This document shows positions 18,737 through 48,459 of a stretch of DNA of 64,000 bases, in pieces. Origin of the DNA: Caldicellulosiruptor changbaiensis (GTDB lineage: Bacteria > Bacillota > Thermoanaerobacteria > Caldicellulosiruptorales > Caldicellulosiruptoraceae); contig NZ_CP034791.1 in the NCBI RefSeq assembly GCF_003999255.1, forward strand, positions 1,218,501-1,282,500. The letters are read 5' to 3'. Each line of letters starts with the position of its first letter. Position 1 is the stretch's first letter. A program made the position numbers and the translations under genes. The notes below the pieces were generated by a model, which was not told where the DNA came from, made no database searches, and worked only from the letters and a program-made list of their open reading frames with translations.

Positions 18737-19528
18737 ATGGCGTTTGAAAAGATATGTATAAACGGGCTTGAAATTCTTAGAGTTCCTGAGTTACAAAAAT
18801 ATGGTGTAGATGCGTTTTTTACAACAAGAAGATATATTAATTCAAATGATTTTAACCTGGGTTACAAATGGGCAAATTCAAAAGAGGAAGTTGACAAAAA
18901 TTTTCTCATTCTTTTTAAAAACTTAGAGATTGATTATAGAAATATTTACTATGCAAAACAGGTGCATAAAAATGATATAATAATTGTTGAGAAAGGATTT
19001 AATTTTTTTGAATATACTCAAGAGAATGAAGCAGATGGGCTTATAACTCAAAAAAGCGGAATTACGCTTATAACATTTCACGCAGATTGCATTCCGATTT
19101 ACATTTATGATAAAGAAAAGAAAATAATTGCCTTGATTCACTCTGGTTGGAGAGGAAGTTTGCAGCATATATCAAAAAGGGCTATAGATATATTAATTTC
19201 GCAATTTAAATGTAATATTTCAAACCTAATTGTAGTAATTGGTCCTGGTATATGCAAAGAGCATTTTGAAGTAGGGGAAGAAGTATATGATGCTTTTTTA
19301 CAAGAGTTTGGCAGTGATATTTGTATATACCATGAAGAGAGATATTATTTAGATTTGAAAAAGGCTATTGAAAAAGATTTGTTAGGAAATGGATTAAAGA
19401 AAGAACAGATTATAGTGTCAGACATGTGTACTTATGAAAAAGAGGATTTGTTCTTTTCATACAGAAGAGATTTTAAAAGTCCAGAGAAATTAGGTAGTAT
19501 GGTTGCCCTCATGAGGATGGTGGGATGA
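18737..19528 (+). CDS. pgeF: multicopper-polyphenol-oxidase-fold purine nucleoside phosphorylase (YlmD/LACC1 family)
   Basis: 263-residue member of the DUF152/YfiH family. Zinc/catalytic residues are visible in KQVHKNDI, HADCIPI and HSGWRGS, the His/Cys/His set of the family, and in VIGPGICKEHFEVG. Homologues have been reported to act on purine nucleosides (phosphorylase/deaminase) and to edit peptidoglycan precursors. ATG start with TTGGAGGTAG upstream. The stop overlaps the phoP start by 4 nt, so it is cotranscribed with phoPR; the link to phosphate control is unexplained, although phosphorolysis consumes phosphate. Confidence 0.88.
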   Translation: MAFEKICINGLEILRVPELQKYGVDAFFTTRRYINSNDFNLGYKWANSKEEVDKNFLILFKNLEIDYRNIYYAKQVHKNDIIIVEKGFNFFEYTQENEADGLITQKSGITLITFHADCIPIYIYDKEKKIIALIHSGWRGSLQHISKRAIDILISQFKCNISNLIVVIGPGICKEHFEVGEEVYDAFLQEFGSDICIYHEERYYLDLKKAIEKDLLGNGLKKEQIIVSDMCTYEKEDLFFSYRRDFKSPEKLGSMVALMRMVG

Positions 19529-20226
19529 TGAAAAATATCTTGATTGTGGATGATGAACCTCATATCGTGGAACTAATTAAATTCAATCTTCAAAAAGAAG
19601 GCTATAATACTTTTGAAGCTGAAAATGGCAACACAGCTTTGGATATTATCAAAAATAACAGGATTGACCTGGTGATACTTGATATAATGATGAGTGATAA
19701 GGACGGATATGAGGTTTTAAAAGAGATTAGGTTTAACAAAGAAACAAAAAACCTTCCTGTTATCTTGCTTTCTGCAAAGTCAGAAGAAATTGACAGAATA
19801 TTAGGTCTTGAGCTTGGAGCAGATGATTACATAACAAAACCATTTAGTGTAAAAGAACTTGTTGCAAGAGTAAAAGCACTTTTTAGGAGAATTGAAAGCT
19901 TAAAACCTGATGTTGAAGAAAAAATTAGATTTGGGGATGTTGAAGTGGATTTTACAAAAAGAAGTGTGAAAAAAAGAAATCAAGAAGTTAGCCTTTCTTT
20001 TAAGGAATTCGAGCTTTTAAAGCTGCTGATAGAAAACAGAGGAAGAGTTTTGGACAGAGATTTCATTTTGCAGAGAGTATGGGGATATGAGTTTGATGGT
20101 GATACTCGAACAGTTGATGTGCATATAAGATTTTTGAGAAGAAAACTTGAAGATGACGAGAAGAATCCAAGGTATATTGAGACAGTAAGAGGAGTTGGCT
20201 ACAGATTTAGAGAAGGGTCTGACTAA
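19525..20226 (+). CDS. phoP: PhoP/PhoB-type response regulator
   Basis: OmpR/PhoB-family regulator, 233 residues. The receiver domain (1-120) has the acidic pocket VDDEP, phospho-acceptor Asp53 (VILDIMM), Ser84-region LLSAKSEE and switch lysine in YITKPFS. The DNA-binding winged helix (about 135-230) includes LSFKEFELLKLLIENRG and DTRTVDVHIRFLRRKL. It is followed 3 nt later by a cognate histidine kinase. Position next to PiT, pstB and phoU genes and a matching 11-bp-phased Pho box at 23718 supports control of phosphate genes. Confidence 0.93.
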   Translation: MMKNILIVDDEPHIVELIKFNLQKEGYNTFEAENGNTALDIIKNNRIDLVILDIMMSDKDGYEVLKEIRFNKETKNLPVILLSAKSEEIDRILGLELGADDYITKPFSVKELVARVKALFRRIESLKPDVEEKIRFGDVEVDFTKRSVKKRNQEVSLSFKEFELLKLLIENRGRVLDRDFILQRVWGYEFDGDTRTVDVHIRFLRRKLEDDEKNPRYIETVRGVGYRFREGSD

Positions 20227-20229
20227 GAA

Positions 20230-21927
20230 ATGAGAACAAAGATATTTGGTTACACCATTTTAGTTATAGTTATTATAAGCTTTTTACAGGGAATTTTTTC
20301 ATATGAGGTGTATAAAAATATTTATCTTGAAGAAAATAAGAAGCAGCTTGAAGTAATGGTAAGCGAGGTTGAAAGATATATAAATAACTTTGATATTCAA
20401 TCACTTTATAAAGTGTACAAAAAAAGTTATTTTAGAGTTACAATTGTTGACAATAAAGGGATTGTGCTTTATGATTCTGAAGCTGATAAGAATAAAATGG
20501 AAAATCATTCAAAAAGACCTGAAATTGTAGAGGCAAATAAATATTCGGGAAAGATTTGCTTCTCGATGCGAAAAAGCAAGACACTTAATAATTTTTTTCT
20601 CTATGCGGCAAAGAAGGTAGAAATTGACAACAAATCTATATTTATTCGAGTCTCTGTTTTACTTGATAAAATTGATGTGATTCTGAAAAAGGCTTTGATT
20701 CAGACACTAAAGTTTGGGCTGATATGTATAGTTTTTGGGATGATACTTACAATTGGCATATCTTCGCTTTTGTATCAGCCTCTCAAGGGGTTAATTTCAC
20801 TCATTACAGAGGGACTAAAAAAATTTGATATAGTTGAACTCAAAGAAAAAGAGGATTTGAAGTGGCTGAGTCTTAGCTTTACGAGATTATATCACCTTTT
20901 AGAAGAGAAGATTAACGAAGTAAATAGTCTCAACTATAGGCTTAGTGCTTTGTTAAACTCAATCGAACTTGGAATAATTTTTTTTGACAACAAAAAGAGG
21001 ATACTTATGTTTAACCAACAGGCTGAAGAGATATTTGCGACAAAGCTTAAAAATGGTACAAGTTTACTTGAGTGCATTCGAATATATGAACTTTTTGAAT
21101 TCCTATATGATGAAAATGCCTTTGAAAAAGAATTTGAGGTAACAGTTAATGGCCAAAATAAAATATTTAAAGTTACTAAAAAGAGAGTAAAATATGATGA
21201 AGGTAAAGAAGGAATATTATTAATTGTAAGTGATATTACGTTCATTAAAAAACTTGAAAAAATCAGGTCTGATTTTGTTGCAAATGTTTCTCATGAACTA
21301 AAAACTCCTTTAACTTCTATAAAAGGTTTTGTAGAGACACTGAAGGATGGTGCAATTGAAGATAGAGAAGTTGCTGAAAAATTTCTTAACATTATCGAGG
21401 TAGAAGTTGAAAGACTTGTTCGACTAATAAATGACTTGCTGTATTTGTCTGAGATAGAAAATGCAAAGATCCAGGTTACCGAAGATGAGGTCAATGTGAA
21501 AGAAGTAGTAGAGGAATGTGTTGAGCTTTTAAGATTTAAAGCTGAGGGCAAAAATGTAAAGATACACCTTAAGTTGGATGATAAGCTTAAAGTAAAGATT
21601 CACAAAGATTGGTTGAAACAGATTTTCATAAACCTCATAGACAACGCAATTGTATACAACAAGGAAAATGGTGAGGTCATTATAGAGGTAGAGAGATTAG
21701 ACGAGAAAATAGCGATAAGAGTAAAAGATACAGGTATTGGTATTCCACAAGATGAGATAGAAAGAATATTCGAAAGATTTTATCGAGTGGATAAAGGGCG
21801 TTCCCGAAAACTCGGAGGTACAGGTTTAGGACTTTCGATAGTCAAACACATTGTTGAACTTTACAATGGAAAGATTTACGTGACAAGTGAAGTTGGCAAA
21901 GGAAGTGAATTTACTATTGTAATATAA
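20230..21927 (+). CDS. phoR: PhoR-type sensor histidine kinase
   Basis: 565-residue membrane kinase. A TM helix near residues 5-25, an extracytoplasmic domain, and a second TM about 160-182 are followed by a linker and a PAS-like domain (about 235-340). The dimerisation/phosphoacceptor motif is ANVSHELKTPLTSIKGFVET with His355; the ATPase shows IFINLIDNAIVYN (N box), VKDTGIGIP (G1), FERFYRVDKGRSR (F box) and GGTGLGLSIVKHI (G2). Paired with the upstream regulator. A strong terminator follows. Confidence 0.93.
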   Translation: MRTKIFGYTILVIVIISFLQGIFSYEVYKNIYLEENKKQLEVMVSEVERYINNFDIQSLYKVYKKSYFRVTIVDNKGIVLYDSEADKNKMENHSKRPEIVEANKYSGKICFSMRKSKTLNNFFLYAAKKVEIDNKSIFIRVSVLLDKIDVILKKALIQTLKFGLICIVFGMILTIGISSLLYQPLKGLISLITEGLKKFDIVELKEKEDLKWLSLSFTRLYHLLEEKINEVNSLNYRLSALLNSIELGIIFFDNKKRILMFNQQAEEIFATKLKNGTSLLECIRIYELFEFLYDENAFEKEFEVTVNGQNKIFKVTKKRVKYDEGKEGILLIVSDITFIKKLEKIRSDFVANVSHELKTPLTSIKGFVETLKDGAIEDREVAEKFLNIIEVEVERLVRLINDLLYLSEIENAKIQVTEDEVNVKEVVEECVELLRFKAEGKNVKIHLKLDDKLKVKIHKDWLKQIFINLIDNAIVYNKENGEVIIEVERLDEKIAIRVKDTGIGIPQDEIERIFERFYRVDKGRSRKLGGTGLGLSIVKHIVELYNGKIYVTSEVGKGSEFTIVI

Positions 21928-21977: not shown

Positions 21978-22976
21978 TTAAACAATTAGATTAATAACCC
22001 ATGCAATCACTCCGCCAATTAAACTGCACATAGGGATTGTCAAAATCCAAGCAATCACAATATTTTTGGCAATTCCCCATCTTACGGCTGAAAATTTTTT
22101 ACATGCACCAACTCCCATAATTGAAGATGAAATTACATGTGTTGTTGAGACAGGTGCACCAATATGGGTTGCAAACTGAATTGTAAGTGCTGCTCCTGTT
22201 TCTGCAGCAAAACCATTGATGGGTGCTAATTTTATTATCTTAATACCCATCGTCTTTATTATTCTCCAGCCACCAAAAGAAGTGCCAAGTGCCATTGCAA
22301 GTGCACAAGCAAATTTTACCCAATCAGGCACCACAAAGTTATTTAAAATCCCTGCGCTCACAAGAGCCATTGTAATTATTCCCATTGATTTTTGAGCGTC
22401 ATTTGAACCGTGACTATATGCCATCCACATCGCAGAGAGTATTTGTAGTTTTGAAAAATATTTATTTACAATATTAGGATGAACCTTAGCAAATACTATG
22501 TAAAGAATCATCATAAACAAGTATCCAAAAACAAAACCTAACACAGGCGAGATAATGAGTGGCAGTACTATTTTTTTGACAAATCCTATCCAGTTTATAT
22601 CAGAGAGTGATTTTGTAGTAACAATTGCAGCGCCAATCAGACCACCTATTATCGCATGTGATGAAGAGGAAGGTATTCCCCACCACCAGGTAAGTAAATC
22701 CCAAACAATTGCTGCGATAACAGCCGCAAGCACGAGGTATTCTGTTACAAACTTTGGGTTCACTATTCCATGGCCTATAGTTTTTGCAACCTCTGTGTTA
22801 ATCATTGCGCCAAAGAAGTTAAGAACTGCTGACATAAATATTGCGGCTCTTGGTGTCAAAACACGTGTTGACACAGACGTTGCAATAGCGTTAGCTGTAT
22901 CATGAAACCCATTTATAAAATCAAAAGTCAAAGCCAGGATGATTATCAGAAGAAGATTTAATGGAATGCTATGCAT
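21978..22976 (-). CDS. pit: PiT-family inorganic phosphate transporter
   Basis: 332-residue membrane protein of the PiT (PHO4) family, which imports phosphate with protons or cations. The two inverted-repeat signatures are DFINGFHDTANAIAT near the N-terminus and AYSHGSNDAQKSMGIITMAL in the second half; about ten hydrophobic helices are evident, including GIPSSSSHAIIGGLIGA and GAPVSTTHVISSSIMG. Its start overlaps the end of the DUF47 gene by 8 nt, the usual pit accessory arrangement. Convergent with phoPR. Confidence 0.95.
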   Translation of the reverse strand: MHSIPLNLLLIIILALTFDFINGFHDTANAIATSVSTRVLTPRAAIFMSAVLNFFGAMINTEVAKTIGHGIVNPKFVTEYLVLAAVIAAIVWDLLTWWWGIPSSSSHAIIGGLIGAAIVTTKSLSDINWIGFVKKIVLPLIISPVLGFVFGYLFMMILYIVFAKVHPNIVNKYFSKLQILSAMWMAYSHGSNDAQKSMGIITMALVSAGILNNFVVPDWVKFACALAMALGTSFGGWRIIKTMGIKIIKLAPINGFAAETGAALTIQFATHIGAPVSTTHVISSSIMGVGACKKFSAVRWGIAKNIVIAWILTIPMCSLIGGVIAWVINLIV

Positions 22977-23595
22977 TTTTTGTCACGACTCCTTCTATTA
23001 CATTTGCAACATCTTCACAGGCATCTAAGGTATCTTCTAAAAAGCCAAATATTTCTTTCCAGATGATGACCTCAATTGGCTTGTCCCTGTTTTCTGAAAA
23101 TAATTTTTTTATTGCATTTCTATAGACAATATCACCCTCATCCTCAATTCTATTGACCTCGATTATCTTTTCTTTAATTGATTTTGTGTTTTTCAAATCT
23201 TTTAGGTTTTCCACAACACTTTTTAACTCTTTTGTGCAATTAATTATCATTTCAGAAAGAATCTTAGCTTCAGGCTTTATTTGGTTAACATTGTAAATTT
23301 CGAATCTGTGTGCCACGGTCTCAAGTGCATCAACAATGTTGTCAATTTCTTTTATGATTGCAAACAAATCCTCTCTGTCAAGAGGGGTAATGAAAGTTCT
23401 GTTGAGAAGTTCAATTACCTGATGTGTAATATCATCGCCTCTATTCTCAGCTTTTTCGAGCTCTGCAAGGTATTTACTCATATTTGAAAGATTATTAATG
23501 AGTTGATTTAACATTACTGCTGATTGATAAGCATTTTCAATTGCATTGTTCAGGAGAACAAAAAATTGATTTTCTTTTGGGATAATACTCCACAT
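22969..23595 (-). CDS. DUF47 / PhoU-like Pit accessory protein
   Basis: 208-residue all-helical protein of the DUF47 (TIGR00153/Pit accessory) family, distantly PhoU-like. Typical are the acidic, metal-binding-type motifs EKAENRGDDITHQVIELLNR and REDLFAIIKEIDNIVDALE in the first half and NRIEDEGDIVYRNAI with CEDVANVIEGVVTKNA in the second. It nearly always precedes a PiT carrier, and the pair is overlapped here; it probably modulates the transporter. ATG start with AAAGGGGTTG upstream on the minus strand. Divergent from pstB, sharing the Pho-box region. Confidence 0.9.
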   Translation of the reverse strand: MWSIIPKENQFFVLLNNAIENAYQSAVMLNQLINNLSNMSKYLAELEKAENRGDDITHQVIELLNRTFITPLDREDLFAIIKEIDNIVDALETVAHRFEIYNVNQIKPEAKILSEMIINCTKELKSVVENLKDLKNTKSIKEKIIEVNRIEDEGDIVYRNAIKKLFSENRDKPIEVIIWKEIFGFLEDTLDACEDVANVIEGVVTKNA

Positions 23596-23717
23596 TCTTC
23601 TACAACCCCTTTTTAAAGTTTTGTCACAAAGTCCATTTTAATAGAAAAGGCGTCTATGCTTCAATGGGAAGAATTTTATAAAAAGCTTTTACATTGCACA
23701 AAGAATATTATATAATA

Positions 23718-23772
23718 TTTAACACAGTTTTAACATACATTAAATAAAAATTTAAAATCATGAGTGTATAAT
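23718..23772 (+). promoter_or_regulatory. Pho box and pstB promoter
   Basis: Four repeats in exact 11-bp phase begin at 23718, 23729, 23740 and 23751: TTTAACA, TTTAACA, TTAAATA, TTTAAAA. This matches the Gram-positive PhoP box (TTAACA-type hexamers separated by 5 bp). A perfect -10 TATAAT lies at 23767-23772, so the box takes the place of a -35, as in PhoP-activated promoters. It lies upstream of pstB-phoU and in the divergent region before DUF47-pit. Confidence 0.8.
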
Positions 23773-23817: not shown

Positions 23818-24567
23818 ATGGTTATTATAGAGACAAAAGATTTAAATTTGTACTATGGTGACAATCATGCCCTTAAAGATGTAAACATAAGGATAAATGA
23901 AAAATCCATTACAGCTTTGATTGGTCCATCTGGTTGTGGAAAATCTACATTTTTGAGAACTCTTAACCGCATGAATGACCTTATTGAAAATGTGAGAATA
24001 GAAGGTAAGGTCTATTTTGAAAACAAGGATATTTATAAAGACATTGATGTTATAAGCCTCAGAAAAAAGATTGGAATGGTATTTCAAAAGCCAAATCCTT
24101 TCCCAATGAGTATATATGACAATGTGGCGTACGGTCCCAGAATACATGGGATTAAGAAAAAGGAGATACTTGATGAGATTGTAGAGAACAGTTTAAGAAA
24201 AGCATACCTTTGGGAAGAGGTAAAAGATAGGCTAAAAAAAAGTGCGTTTTCATTATCTGGAGGTCAGCAGCAAAGACTGTGTATTGCAAGAGTTTTGGCA
24301 GTGGAACCTGAGGTCATTTTACTTGATGAACCAACTTCTGCACTTGACCCAATTTCCACTTTAAAAATAGAAGAGCTGTTAGAGGAACTCAAGAAAAATT
24401 ATACAATTGTAATAGTCACTCACAATATGCAACAAGCGGCAAGAATATCTGACTGGACAGGATTTTTCCTAAATGGTGAACTTATCGAATATGATAGGAC
24501 AATTACTATTTTTAACACACCAAAGGATAAGAGAACTGAGGATTATATAACAGGCAGATTCGGATAA
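23818..24567 (+). CDS. pstB: phosphate ABC transporter ATP-binding protein PstB
   Basis: ABC ATPase of the Pst phosphate importer, 249 residues from ATG 23818 (GGGAGAGG upstream); the frame also opens at GTG 23764, but that would lie over the -10. Walker A is [10 protein letters not shown]-loop [19 protein letters not shown] (the PstB-specific wording), signature [16 protein letters not shown], Walker [14 protein letters not shown], and H-loop VTHNM. PstS, PstC and PstA are not next to it, which is unusual; phoU follows directly. It either serves permease genes elsewhere or acts in signalling. Confidence 0.95.
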
Positions 24568-24594: not shown

Positions 24595-25257
24595 ATGACA
24601 AGACCAACATTTGAAAATGAACTAAAAGAGTTACACTTAGATATCCTGAAGATGGGGGCAATGGCTGAGGAGGCAATTGACAAAGCAATACATGCCTTAA
24701 AGACTAAAGATATTGATCTTGCGCAAAAGATTATTGAAAATGATGACAAGATTGATACTCTTACTGAAGAGATAGAGAAAAAGTGTGCTATCGTAATTGC
24801 AACTCAGCAGCCTCTTGCAAGCGACCTGAGGCTTATAATCACTGCTATGAGGATTGCCACAGACATTGAGAGAATTGCGGACCATGCAGAAGATATTTCC
24901 CAAATAACAATTAAATTAGCAAAAGAATCGTATATAAAGCCTCTTATTGATATTCCAAAGATGGCAGATATTACTCGTTCTATGTTAAAAGATGCGCTTG
25001 ATTCTTACGTAAATTCTGATATAGATCTTGCAAAATCTGTTGTGAAAAGAGATGACGTAGTAGACCAGATGTATCAAAGTTTAATAGATGAATTAGAACA
25101 GATAATGAAAGAAAATTCAGATGCTATTTCACAGTGTATACAATTTTTACTTGTTATAAAATATTTAGAGAGGATAGCAGACCACTCAACCAATATAGCT
25201 GAATGGGTGGTTTATAAAATAACAGGAATGCACAAGCACGATTGGGAGACAAAGTAG
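24595..25257 (+). CDS. phoU: phosphate signalling protein PhoU
   Basis: 220-residue helical protein with two PhoU repeats (about 1-115 and 116-220). Metal-binding-type motifs are seen in RIATDIERIADHAEDI and YLERIADHSTNIAEWVVY, the paired E-R-I-A-D-H signatures of PhoU. It down-regulates Pho signalling through the Pst complex and PhoR when phosphate is plentiful. ATG start 27 nt after pstB with a GCGAGGTG site. Here it sits with PstB and a PhoR gene in one neighbourhood, but without PstSCA. Confidence 0.94.
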   Translation: MTRPTFENELKELHLDILKMGAMAEEAIDKAIHALKTKDIDLAQKIIENDDKIDTLTEEIEKKCAIVIATQQPLASDLRLIITAMRIATDIERIADHAEDISQITIKLAKESYIKPLIDIPKMADITRSMLKDALDSYVNSDIDLAKSVVKRDDVVDQMYQSLIDELEQIMKENSDAISQCIQFLLVIKYLERIADHSTNIAEWVVYKITGMHKHDWETK

Positions 25258-46317: not shown

Positions 46318-46989
46318 ATGAAGATATTAGTCATTGATGATGATGTAAAGATTTGTGAGGTTATTAAACTGTATTTAGAAAAAGAAGGTTTTGAAGTTGT
46401 AATTGCCCACAATGGCAGCGACGGTATGACCATGTTCAAACACGAGATGCCGGATTTAGTCATACTGGATATTATGCTCCCTAAGAAAGATGGGTATGAA
46501 GTATGCAGAGAAATCAGAAAAATCAGTAATATTCCAATTATAATGCTCACTGCAAAAGGTGAAACATTTGATAAAGTGTTGGGTTTAGAGCTTGGAGCAG
46601 ATGATTATATTGTCAAGCCATTTGACCCAAAAGAGCTCATTGCGAGAATAAAGGCTGTTTTAAGACGAACTCAAGGTGAAGTAAATGATGAGAAGGTGGT
46701 TGTTTATCCTAACCTTACCATCAATTTAACTACATACGAGGTAAAGCTTGAGGACAAGATTATAGAGATGCCGCCAAAAGAGATAGAGCTTTTATATTTT
46801 TTAGCATCTCATCCTAATAAGGTATTTACACGTGAACAGCTTCTTGACCACATATGGGGTTATAATTTTATGGGCGATACCAGAACTGTTGATGTCCATA
46901 TTAAAAGGATTAGGGAAAAAATAGAAAAAGATAAATACCCTTGGCGTATCAAAACTGTTTGGGGTGTGGGTTATAAATTTGAGATTTAA
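46318..46989 (+). CDS. OmpR-family response regulator
   Basis: 223 residues from ATG 46318 (AAGGGGTAGG upstream); the open frame from 46264 overlaps the previous gene and is rejected. Receiver: VIDDD pocket, phospho-acceptor Asp51 (VILDIMLP), LTAKGE, YIVKPFD. DNA-binding domain: EMPPKEIELLYFLASHPN and DTRTVDVHIKRIREKI with VWGVGYKFEI. Wording is close to WalR/ResD/PhoP-class regulators. Cognate kinase follows; htrA behind it carries 11-bp-phased repeats that fit an OmpR-family site. Confidence 0.92.
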   Translation: MKILVIDDDVKICEVIKLYLEKEGFEVVIAHNGSDGMTMFKHEMPDLVILDIMLPKKDGYEVCREIRKISNIPIIMLTAKGETFDKVLGLELGADDYIVKPFDPKELIARIKAVLRRTQGEVNDEKVVVYPNLTINLTTYEVKLEDKIIEMPPKEIELLYFLASHPNKVFTREQLLDHIWGYNFMGDTRTVDVHIKRIREKIEKDKYPWRIKTVWGVGYKFEI

Positions 46990-47014: not shown

Positions 47015-48418
47015 TTGAAATCTATATACTTTAAGTTTGTTACTATCTACACGATTATAATTGTCATGGGTTTTCTAATATTTGGGACAATACTTAACAA
47101 TCTTACTGAAAATTATTTTATATCACAAAAACAGACTCAGCTTGTCCGTGAAGCTGAAAAGATTGCAACAGGTCTTGCTCTTTGGTATATCACAGGCTTT
47201 TTAGAAAGGGATAGGCTTAGATTTGAGATAAATTTTTTACGTGACTATTTAAATGCCTCAATATTAATGATAAACAGAAATGCAAATGTTGTACTAAATT
47301 CAGATGAACAAGTTTTTATAAATGATTCAATTCTTCAAAGGATTAGAGATAAGGTATTCAGTGGTAATATCGCTGTTGAGAAGACATTGATAGGAGCTAT
47401 CGTAAAGAAAGAATATCTTATAATTGGGTATCCTGTTGTAATAAATAATCAAGTGGTTTCTGGACTTTTGCTTATCACATCAACAGACGATATTCGGCAA
47501 ACACTTAGGATGTACAATAGAATAATATGGCTTATTACATTGTTTGAGGTAATTCTTGTGTTGATTATAACCTATGCGCTTACACAGAAAATTATCACCC
47601 CAATAAAAAAGCTTGCAACTGTTTCAAGAAAAATTGCAGAAGGAGATTTTTCAGAAAAGATTCCTATACCGCTAAACAGCAATGATGAGATTGGGGAGCT
47701 TATAGCTTCTTTTAATTACATGACAGAAAAGTTAGAAAACTTAGAGATGATGAGGAAAAGTTTTATATCAAATGTTTCTCATGAGCTCAGATCTCCGCTT
47801 ACATCTATAAGAGGTTTTATTGAAGGTATACTTGACAGGACAATTCCTGATGACAAAAGAGATTTTTATTTAAACTTAGTGAAAGAAGAGGTTATAAAAC
47901 TTAACAACTTAATAAATCAACTTTTAGAATTGTCAAGACTTGAGTGGGGGAAGATAAATTTAAATTTGAGCACATTTAAGATTTATTCTGTTATAGCAGA
48001 AGAACTGATTAAGTTTGAACAGCGAATTGAAGAGAAAAAGATAGAAGTATTTTTGGAAGTAGATGAAAATCTTGTGGTTAAGGCAGATAGGGATTTGATT
48101 AGCAGGGTAGTTCACAACCTTTTGGACAATGCGATAAAATACAATAAAGTCGGGGGTAAGATATATATATATTCCGAAGTTGAAAATGGCAAAGCATATA
48201 TCACAATTCAAGACACGGGCATTGGCATACCTGAAAAGCTTCAAAAACTCATATGGGAAAGATTTTACAAGGTTGATGAGTCGCGCAGCCTTGAAAAGGG
48301 CGTAGGTTTGGGACTTTCTATAGTAAAGGAGATTATAAAGCTCCATAAGCAGAATATCTGGGTTGAAAGTGAAGAGGGTGTGGGTACAAAGTTTACATTT
48401 ACGCTTGATTTAAAATAA
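47015..48418 (+). CDS. sensor histidine kinase with HAMP domain
   Basis: 467-residue kinase partner of the preceding regulator. TM1 about 8-28, an extracytoplasmic loop with a single-Cache/PAS-like length (30-165), TM2 about 170-190, HAMP (about 192-245, including FSEKIPIPLNSNDEIGEL), HisKA with His256 in SNVSHELRSPLTSIRGFIEG, then N box VVHNLLDNAIKYN, G1 IQDTGIGIP, F box WERFYKVDESRS and G2 GVGLGLSIVKEI. TTG start with AAGGGTGTG upstream. Envelope-stress sensing would fit the adjacent protease; this is inference. Confidence 0.92.
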   Translation: MKSIYFKFVTIYTIIIVMGFLIFGTILNNLTENYFISQKQTQLVREAEKIATGLALWYITGFLERDRLRFEINFLRDYLNASILMINRNANVVLNSDEQVFINDSILQRIRDKVFSGNIAVEKTLIGAIVKKEYLIIGYPVVINNQVVSGLLLITSTDDIRQTLRMYNRIIWLITLFEVILVLIITYALTQKIITPIKKLATVSRKIAEGDFSEKIPIPLNSNDEIGELIASFNYMTEKLENLEMMRKSFISNVSHELRSPLTSIRGFIEGILDRTIPDDKRDFYLNLVKEEVIKLNNLINQLLELSRLEWGKINLNLSTFKIYSVIAEELIKFEQRIEEKKIEVFLEVDENLVVKADRDLISRVVHNLLDNAIKYNKVGGKIYIYSEVENGKAYITIQDTGIGIPEKLQKLIWERFYKVDESRSLEKGVGLGLSIVKEIIKLHKQNIWVESEEGVGTKFTFTLDLK

Positions 48419-48431
48419 TTTTTATTATTTG

Positions 48432-48459
48432 TTAACAGTTCGTTAAAAATTTTTTCAAA
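48432..48459 (+). promoter_or_regulatory. 11-bp-phased direct repeats upstream of htrA
   Basis: TTAACA (48432), TTAAAA (48443) and TTCAAA (48454) are spaced exactly 11 bp, each separated by 5 bp, the geometry of OmpR/PhoP-family sites. TTATAA follows at 48474-48479. The likely binder is the regulator encoded just upstream or PhoP. Confidence 0.5.

Follow-up and report, generated by a model that had tools for sequence, protein, structure and literature searches.

The stretch of DNA analysed here (the window) comprises 64,000 nucleotides, bases 1218501–1282500 of the single-contig, 2,905,633-bp genome of Caldicellulosiruptor changbaiensis (G000 in our set), which has been described as 2.91 Mb with 35.1% G+C (PMC10434631). 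The genes fsa and pgeF are followed by genes for a PhoP-type response regulator and a PhoR-type kinase, by pit and a PhoU_div gene on the opposite strand, and then by pstB and phoU. In window coordinates, the features are as follows:

19525–20226, + strand: phoP-type response regulator gene (receiver and winged-helix domains, PF00072 and PF00486), the presumed binder of the box
20230–21927, + strand: phoR-type sensor kinase gene (PnpS model 398.4 bits, cut-off 400; PhoR model 327.5 bits, cut-off 334.2)
21978–22976, − strand: pit, low-affinity phosphate transporter gene (PF01384, 347.8 bits)
22969–23595, − strand: pitR-type gene (PhoU_div/DUF47; PF01865, 106.7 bits), adjoining pit and divergent from pstB
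23688–23716, + strand: P1, a sigma-A-like promoter with TTTACA (23688–23693), 17 bp and TATAAT (23711–23716), matching 11 of 12 consensus bases
23718–23757, + strand: Pho box of four 7-bp units in 11-bp steps (direct reading, matrix scan, conservation)
23718–23724, + strand: Pho box unit R1, TTTAACA (direct reading)
23729–23735, + strand: Pho box unit R2, TTTAACA (direct reading)
23740–23746, + strand: Pho box unit R3, TTAAATA (direct reading)
23751–23757, + strand: Pho box unit R4, TTTAAAA (direct reading)
23767–23772, + strand: TATAAT, the −10 element of P2, 9 bp 3′ of R4 and without a recognizable −35 (direct reading)
23818–24567, + strand: pstB, phosphate ABC transporter ATPase gene (TIGR00972, 427.3 bits, cut-off 343.2)
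24595–25257, + strand: phoU, phosphate signalling protein gene (TIGR02135, 228 bits, cut-off 130.25)

The pstB gene is unique in this genome (one match at E≤1e-60). For the kinase, the PnpS and PhoR models were the top two matches, each slightly below its curated cut-off. The order fsa-pgeF-phoP-phoR-(pit-pitR)-pstB-phoU is conserved in G007 and in G012, a member of another genus of the same family. The proteins of the G012 locus are 44–88% identical to their G000 counterparts, and its pstB is preceded by four units, 9 bp and TATCAT. We also looked for the divergent promoter of pit-pitR. The palindromic AATATTATATAATATT was rejected for this role, as no −35 accompanies it on that strand. A better candidate is TTGAAG-18-TAAAAT at 23664–23635, which stays unproven because conservation of this block across the 12 genomes of the genus is poor (6 of 30 positions are invariant).

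The original prediction had placed four repeats in exact 11-bp phase nine bases before a perfect TATAAT, and direct reading of the sequence agreed with this to the base. TTTAACA, TTTAACA, TTAAATA and TTTAAAA span 23718–23757 in exact 11-bp steps, and the spacer between R4 and TATAAT consists of the nine bases 23758–23766. The hexamer located 17 bp 5′ of this −10, ATAAAA, is unlike TTGACA. It had further been proposed that the Pho box replaces the −35 of pstB-phoU. This description fits the downstream promoter P2 only, since the ordinary-looking promoter P1 directly upstream of the array had been overlooked.

In a genome with 35% G+C, short TTTAA words are common, and the array might be a chance cluster of AT-rich words. 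We scored the site with matrices that were trained on five other promoters of the same genome and from which the pstB-phoU site was left out; the −10 matrix additionally included three hand-entered consensus-like hexamers. Chance was modelled by 200 first-order Markov simulations of the 64-kb window, taking both strands. The site obtained a composite score of 40.5. The runners-up on the + strand were a position one unit upstream within the array itself (13.8) and the next independent site, at 48420 (12.8); the best position on the − strand scored 11.4, and the maxima of the simulated windows had a mean of 7.0 and a highest value of 20.8. With the box alone, the score was 32.8, compared with simulated maxima of 9.8 (mean) and 26.8 (highest). 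High scores were confined to a period of 11; periods 8–10 and 12–14 gave at most 13.2 on the + strand. Among gaps of 5–14 bp between box and −10, a gap of 9 bp scored best at this site. A weak array of TTTAA/GTTAACA words at 48409–48458, readable on both strands, lies within the simulated chance range and about 2 kb from an MtrA-like response regulator gene (46321).

The same architecture was found elsewhere in the genome, where six separate promoter loci, pstB-phoU included, share box, 9 bp and −10. The genes pstS, pstC and pstA lie apart from pstB (1686342–1688931, minus strand), and upstream of pstS we read TTTAACA TAGA TTTAACG TTCA TTTTAAA TTGA TTTAACA, nine bases and TAGAAT. Four units and nine bases precede TATAAT at a GDPD gene, TAAAAT at a chemoreceptor gene and TACATT at a ugpAEB-like operon, the best family matches of which are UgpA, UgpE and UgpB, all three below the curated cut-offs. 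Eight units, nine bases and TATACT were found upstream of a PstS2-alkaline phosphatase operon (L158 12151–15114), in which the genes behind the eight-unit box encode a PstS-family protein, which contains a Big_5 domain, and an alkaline phosphatase; a gene beside it resembles ParA/Soj by eye.

For comparison across the genus, we used a composite pattern of units 1, 2 and 4, nine bases and the −10, with the reversed pattern as control. At ≤1 mismatch, it gave 52 matches, with 3–6 in every one of the 12 genomes of the genus; the control gave none. In G000, the boxes of pstSCA, GDPD, the chemoreceptor and PstS2-alkaline phosphatase matched at this level and that of the ugpAEB-like operon with two mismatches. 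We were able to assign 48 of the 52 matches to phosphate-type or chemoreceptor genes (39 of 52 when the chemoreceptor is not counted): 12 precede pstB, 12 pstS, nine the chemoreceptor gene, seven PstS2 (with alkaline phosphatase behind in the six examined, G011 being the seventh), three a second pstB, two ugpA, two a metallophosphoesterase gene (one by Pfam, one by similar start only) and one GDPD. The four matches without explanation are G010 2517248, G006 1191465 (before a BtrH_N gene), G007 1863159 and G008 717097. The enrichment of the motif before phosphate genes, which had been suggested as a check, was thus borne out. When two mismatches were allowed, the signal was diluted by many chance matches (94, control 34). 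The 12 genomes are not mutually independent, and the six promoters in one genome are separate loci.

The spacing was equally sharp at ≤1 mismatch, with 52 matches at 9 bp, one at 8 bp and eight at 10 bp, all eight of which also matched at 9 bp. At ≤2 mismatches, 8 bp gave 35 matches (control 39) and 10 bp gave 60 (control 22), 41 of the 60 being sites listed at 9 bp. Within the array, R1, R2 and the spacers after them are invariant in the 12 genomes, as are six of seven positions in R3 and five of seven in R4. An unbroken invariant run of 41 bp (23704–23744) extends from the −10 of P1 into R3. The −10 of P2 is TATAAT or TAAAAT in 12 of 12 genomes (five of six positions invariant), and the spacer before it is free (one of nine positions invariant).

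Clustering by chance is made conceivable by the A+T-rich composition and by the chance matches that appear at two mismatches. Against it, none of the 200 simulations reached the score of the site, 52 matches stood against no control match at ≤1 mismatch, and the site is conserved in 12 genomes. The simulations, the control and the conservation have already refuted this explanation, to which we give practically no weight.

The array has the traits of a Pho box: direct repeats of seven conserved and four free bases with a period of 11 bp, a position in the −35 region at a fixed short distance to the −10 (9 bp here, at the five other promoters of the genome and in all 12 genomes of the genus, not at pstC outside the family) and recurrence before phosphate-acquisition genes. 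The proposal of a PhoP-type Pho box is supported by genome-wide and comparative evidence, as textbook phosphate-scavenging genes are preceded by an array of this kind, likewise spaced 9 bp from the −10. In the literature, the PHO box is defined by 11-nt direct repeats with seven conserved and four free bases, the units being CTGTCAT in E. coli and GTTCACC in S. coelicolor (PMC4415409). The boxes of E. coli, B. subtilis and Streptomyces are likewise head-to-tail 11-nt units (PMC4415409) and stand before pst and other scavenging genes; in contrast to the E. coli and S. coelicolor boxes, the unit here is TTTAACA, in arrays of four or eight. The PhoP boxes of Bacillus phyL/phyC have the sequence TT(T/A/C)ACA, and their tandem repeats overlap the sigma-A −35 region (PMC6327384). 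A TTNACA-like core is also present in TTTAACA. The locus differs from Bacillus in the unit itself, in the degenerate R3 and R4, in the split of pst into pstSCA and pstB-phoU and in the separate promoter that abuts the array. PhoP boxes of the TT(T/A/C)ACA type are also found at B. subtilis pstS. Because both the 7+4 direct repeats and the Bacillus boxes have been described before, the box itself is a very clean case of a known kind. In S. aureus, PitR is encoded beside PitA and PhoU beside the Pst genes, and both are reported to be accessory regulators of PhoPR (PMC13170248). As in S. aureus, pitR here adjoins pit and phoU a Pst gene; unlike there, pit-pitR stands back to back with pstB-phoU and beside the response regulator and kinase genes.

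The regulator that binds the box was the next question. The local response regulator contains PF00072 and PF00486 above cut-off (receiver and OmpR/PhoB winged helix), and its best sequence match among solved structures is RegX3 (2oqr). A real direct-repeat operator could also belong to another member of the OmpR/PhoB family, such as the WalR/YycF-like protein (G000 2811294) or the MtrA-like protein (window position 46321), whose regulon would then extend beyond the phosphate genes. The genome contains at least eight full-length OmpR-type candidates, and two other regulators resemble the local one. The local regulator scored 246.1 bits with the PhoB equivalog model (TIGR02154, cut-off 296.2) and 250.7 bits with that of YycF (NF040534, cut-off 340). 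Because both cut-offs were missed, we call it PhoP-type by context. The WalR motif consists of TGTWAH repeats, unlike TTTAACA. Moreover, a much better WalR candidate (337.8 bits to YycF, cut-off 340) sits far from phosphate genes, whereas the regulator beside pstB holds its position in another genus and the targets are a textbook phosphate set. We therefore consider another regulator unlikely. The box very probably belongs to a PhoP-type regulator, and most likely to the one encoded 3.5 kb away, as judged by gene neighbourhood and target set. The identification of the local regulator as PhoP held as far as context goes, its gene neighbours being the same in another species and in another genus, but not by the PhoB and YycF models. 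No Pho box for phoPR was found within the window, and autoregulation of the usual type was not seen there.

P1 ends 1 bp before R1. Its sequence agrees with TTGACA-17±1-TATAAT at 11 of 12 bases, and the window contains only eight sites with at least 11 of 12 on both strands (spacing 16–18). Both hexamers of P1 are invariant (6/6 each) throughout the 12 genomes of the genus. No match as good as P1 precedes any of the five remaining boxes of G000, where the best within 60 bp upstream is 8–9 of 12. These properties allow for the alternative that P1 alone drives pstB-phoU, with the array as a repressor site or roadblock and TATAAT at 23767 unused. P1 is close to the consensus, its hexamers are conserved as well as R1 and R2, and the title of a study of phyC names both positive and negative action of PhoP~P at one promoter (Makarewicz 2006, cited in PMC6327384). 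The fixed 9-bp spacing to a −10, however, recurs at promoters without a comparable P1, and all 12 genomes retain either TATAAT or TAAAAT as the −10 at 23767 despite the free spacer before it. We regard transcription from P1 alone as very improbable.

Taken together, these data make it highly probable that the array is the operator of a phosphate-starvation regulon, in which PhoP~P would drive P2 of pstB-phoU and the other boxed genes, with P1 as the likely source of basal expression. The sequences and how well they are conserved, the architecture common to the promoters and the genes behind them lead us to infer the following course of phosphorylation, binding and activation. When phosphate is scarce, the PhoR-type kinase (20230–21927) would phosphorylate the PhoP-type regulator (19525–20226). 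PhoP~P would then occupy the four direct repeats head to tail, in place of the missing −35, and bring sigma-A RNA polymerase to the −10 of P2 (23767–23772). This would raise expression of pstB-phoU together with the pstSCA, ugpAEB-like, GDPD, PstS2-phosphatase and chemoreceptor genes.

In the Pho system, PstB and PhoU are required in phosphate-rich cells to restrain the kinase. In such cells, P1 (23688–23716) may provide basal PstB and PhoU, which would hold the kinase off. A start about 7 bp past the −10 of P1 would fall inside R1; therefore, a regulator on R1–R3 should block P1. PhoP~P bound to R1–R3 would thus cover the P1 start and shut P1. We tentatively propose, at somewhat less than even odds, that pstB-phoU contains a built-in promoter exchange: P1 would keep PstB and PhoU present at high phosphate, and PhoP~P would extinguish P1 and fire P2. 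The kinase would then never lack its brake, which would rise with the response. Under the same tentative proposal, the operator places a chemoreceptor gene of a thermophile under phosphate control. What is new in our reading is the P1/P2 switch, together with the Pho-linked chemoreceptor. The abutting P1 lets one ask how the PhoU/PstB brake can be subject to the very response that it restrains and still not be lost.

The chemoreceptor gene stands directly behind its Pho box and was identified by composite match and domain search:

L158 4552–2422 (G000 2882551–2880421), minus strand: chemoreceptor gene

The protein has 678 aa and contains dCache_3 by Pfam. Its box is present in 11 of the 12 genomes examined in the genus, including two at two mismatches (G004 and G007), and an orthologue stands behind the box in ten genomes besides G000 (53–98% identical by tblastn over the stretch compared). 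In G006, neither the box nor, at E≤1e-60, a relative of the protein was found, the protein search having had no positive control. The dCache_3, HAMP and MCP signalling domains were detected in the proteins of G000 and G008; that of G007 gave no dCache match and an MCP score of 33.7 (cut-off 34.6). The Pho box would suggest a role in phosphate taxis, by which starving cells may retune their swimming. Expression of CtpL, a chemoreceptor of Pseudomonas aeruginosa, goes up as phosphate falls, and CtpL acts through PstS (PMC4926252). The receptor here would share with CtpL the link to phosphate, which in its case is predicted from the Pho box.

Among the best-ranked literature matches listed (titles and abstract openings, with subscription papers mostly outside the search), no account of a Caldicellulosiruptor phosphate regulon was present. 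Published transcription-start data exist for C. bescii (PMC8579813); in the main text of that regulon paper, the terms 'phop' and 'pst' are absent. For the genus as a whole, a group of thermophiles that degrade plant biomass, the present data provide a sharp operator rule (units of 11 bp, with 9 bp before the −10) and predict a small phosphate regulon.

We also searched 13 of 29 genomes from outside the genus (G012 of the family and 12 outside it) with a three-unit pattern at ≤3 mismatches and obtained 89 matches, compared with 33 for the control. In 10 of the 13, all ten outside the family, pstB has a same-strand box no more than ~3.2 kb upstream. At seven scanned promoters near pst, the next gene encodes a BPD_transp_1 permease in five cases and a PstS-type protein in two; by its place, the permease is probably PstC. 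The 9-bp spacing is retained at pstS of G022 and G027. At pstC outside the family, the −10 lies 19–23 bp past the fourth unit, is ambiguous and is not at 9 bp. A 9+11 rule for these pstC promoters was dropped, as the choice of −10 within 19–23 bp is ambiguous. Beyond the genus, the exact composite pattern showed no clear enrichment (matches in 7 of 25 genomes, control 4 of 25). G012 (L245) contains an eight-unit array, nine bases and TACAAT before a gene for a PstS-like protein with a Big_5 domain. The eight-unit operator may therefore predate the genus, as G012 belongs to another one.

Several further sites were noted within the genus. In G000, three units, 9 bp and TATAAT at 1755357 (L160 4858–4907) lie between, and partly in, the opposite-strand ORFs L160 4630–4854 and 4870–7143, over the apparent ribosome-binding site of the former. 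On its own strand, no ORF of at least 115 aa starts within 500 bp downstream, and no phosphate gene was seen nearby. All 12 genomes of the genus have a match at a comparable place, with conservation equal to that of the real boxes. We set this site aside as a Pho operator, with some doubt; conservation on account of the two genes themselves is more probable than a three-unit operator. The weak three-unit matches at 586604, 600027, 1064418, 2362642 and 2576878 were rejected on reading their surroundings by eye. Only 2576878 overlaps a composite match (2576839–2576893, two mismatches); a similar sequence was also matched in G004, G005, G007, G008 and G009, and no ORF of at least 60 aa lies on its strand within 2.5 kb downstream. 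The remaining G000 match with two mismatches, 164680, ends 9 bp before a 135-aa ORF. Both 2576878 and 164680 were left out of the count of six promoters.

In G004 and G007, the PstS2-alkaline phosphatase gene pair is present and no composite match was found before it at two mismatches. In G005, pstB is broken into two reading frames (L202 3431–4176, C1 ~1287930–1288675), its Pho box and P1 being intact; a further pstB in this genome (L183) is whole and has a box of its own. In G009 (L199 1087–1421), an 82-codon, remnant-like second pstB has a Pho box that fits 8-bp spacing better than 9. A repeated AT-rich sequence (TTTAACAAATATTTTACATGATTTTTATTTAG...), possibly a repeat element, partly matches the box pattern at G008 717097 and 717916, G011 439842 and 2003803, G007 1674927 and G004 275024.

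Two observations concern other genomes outside the genus. In G013 (L257 1501–2672), four units, 9 bp and TATAAT precede a gene for an MGDG-synthase-like glycosyltransferase, which suggests phosphate-controlled lipid replacement in a relative. In G022 (L221; C1 1719096–1719150), a Pho-like array stands before a UDP-glucose dehydrogenase gene and is reminiscent of the teichuronic acid genes of B. subtilis, which are phosphate-controlled.
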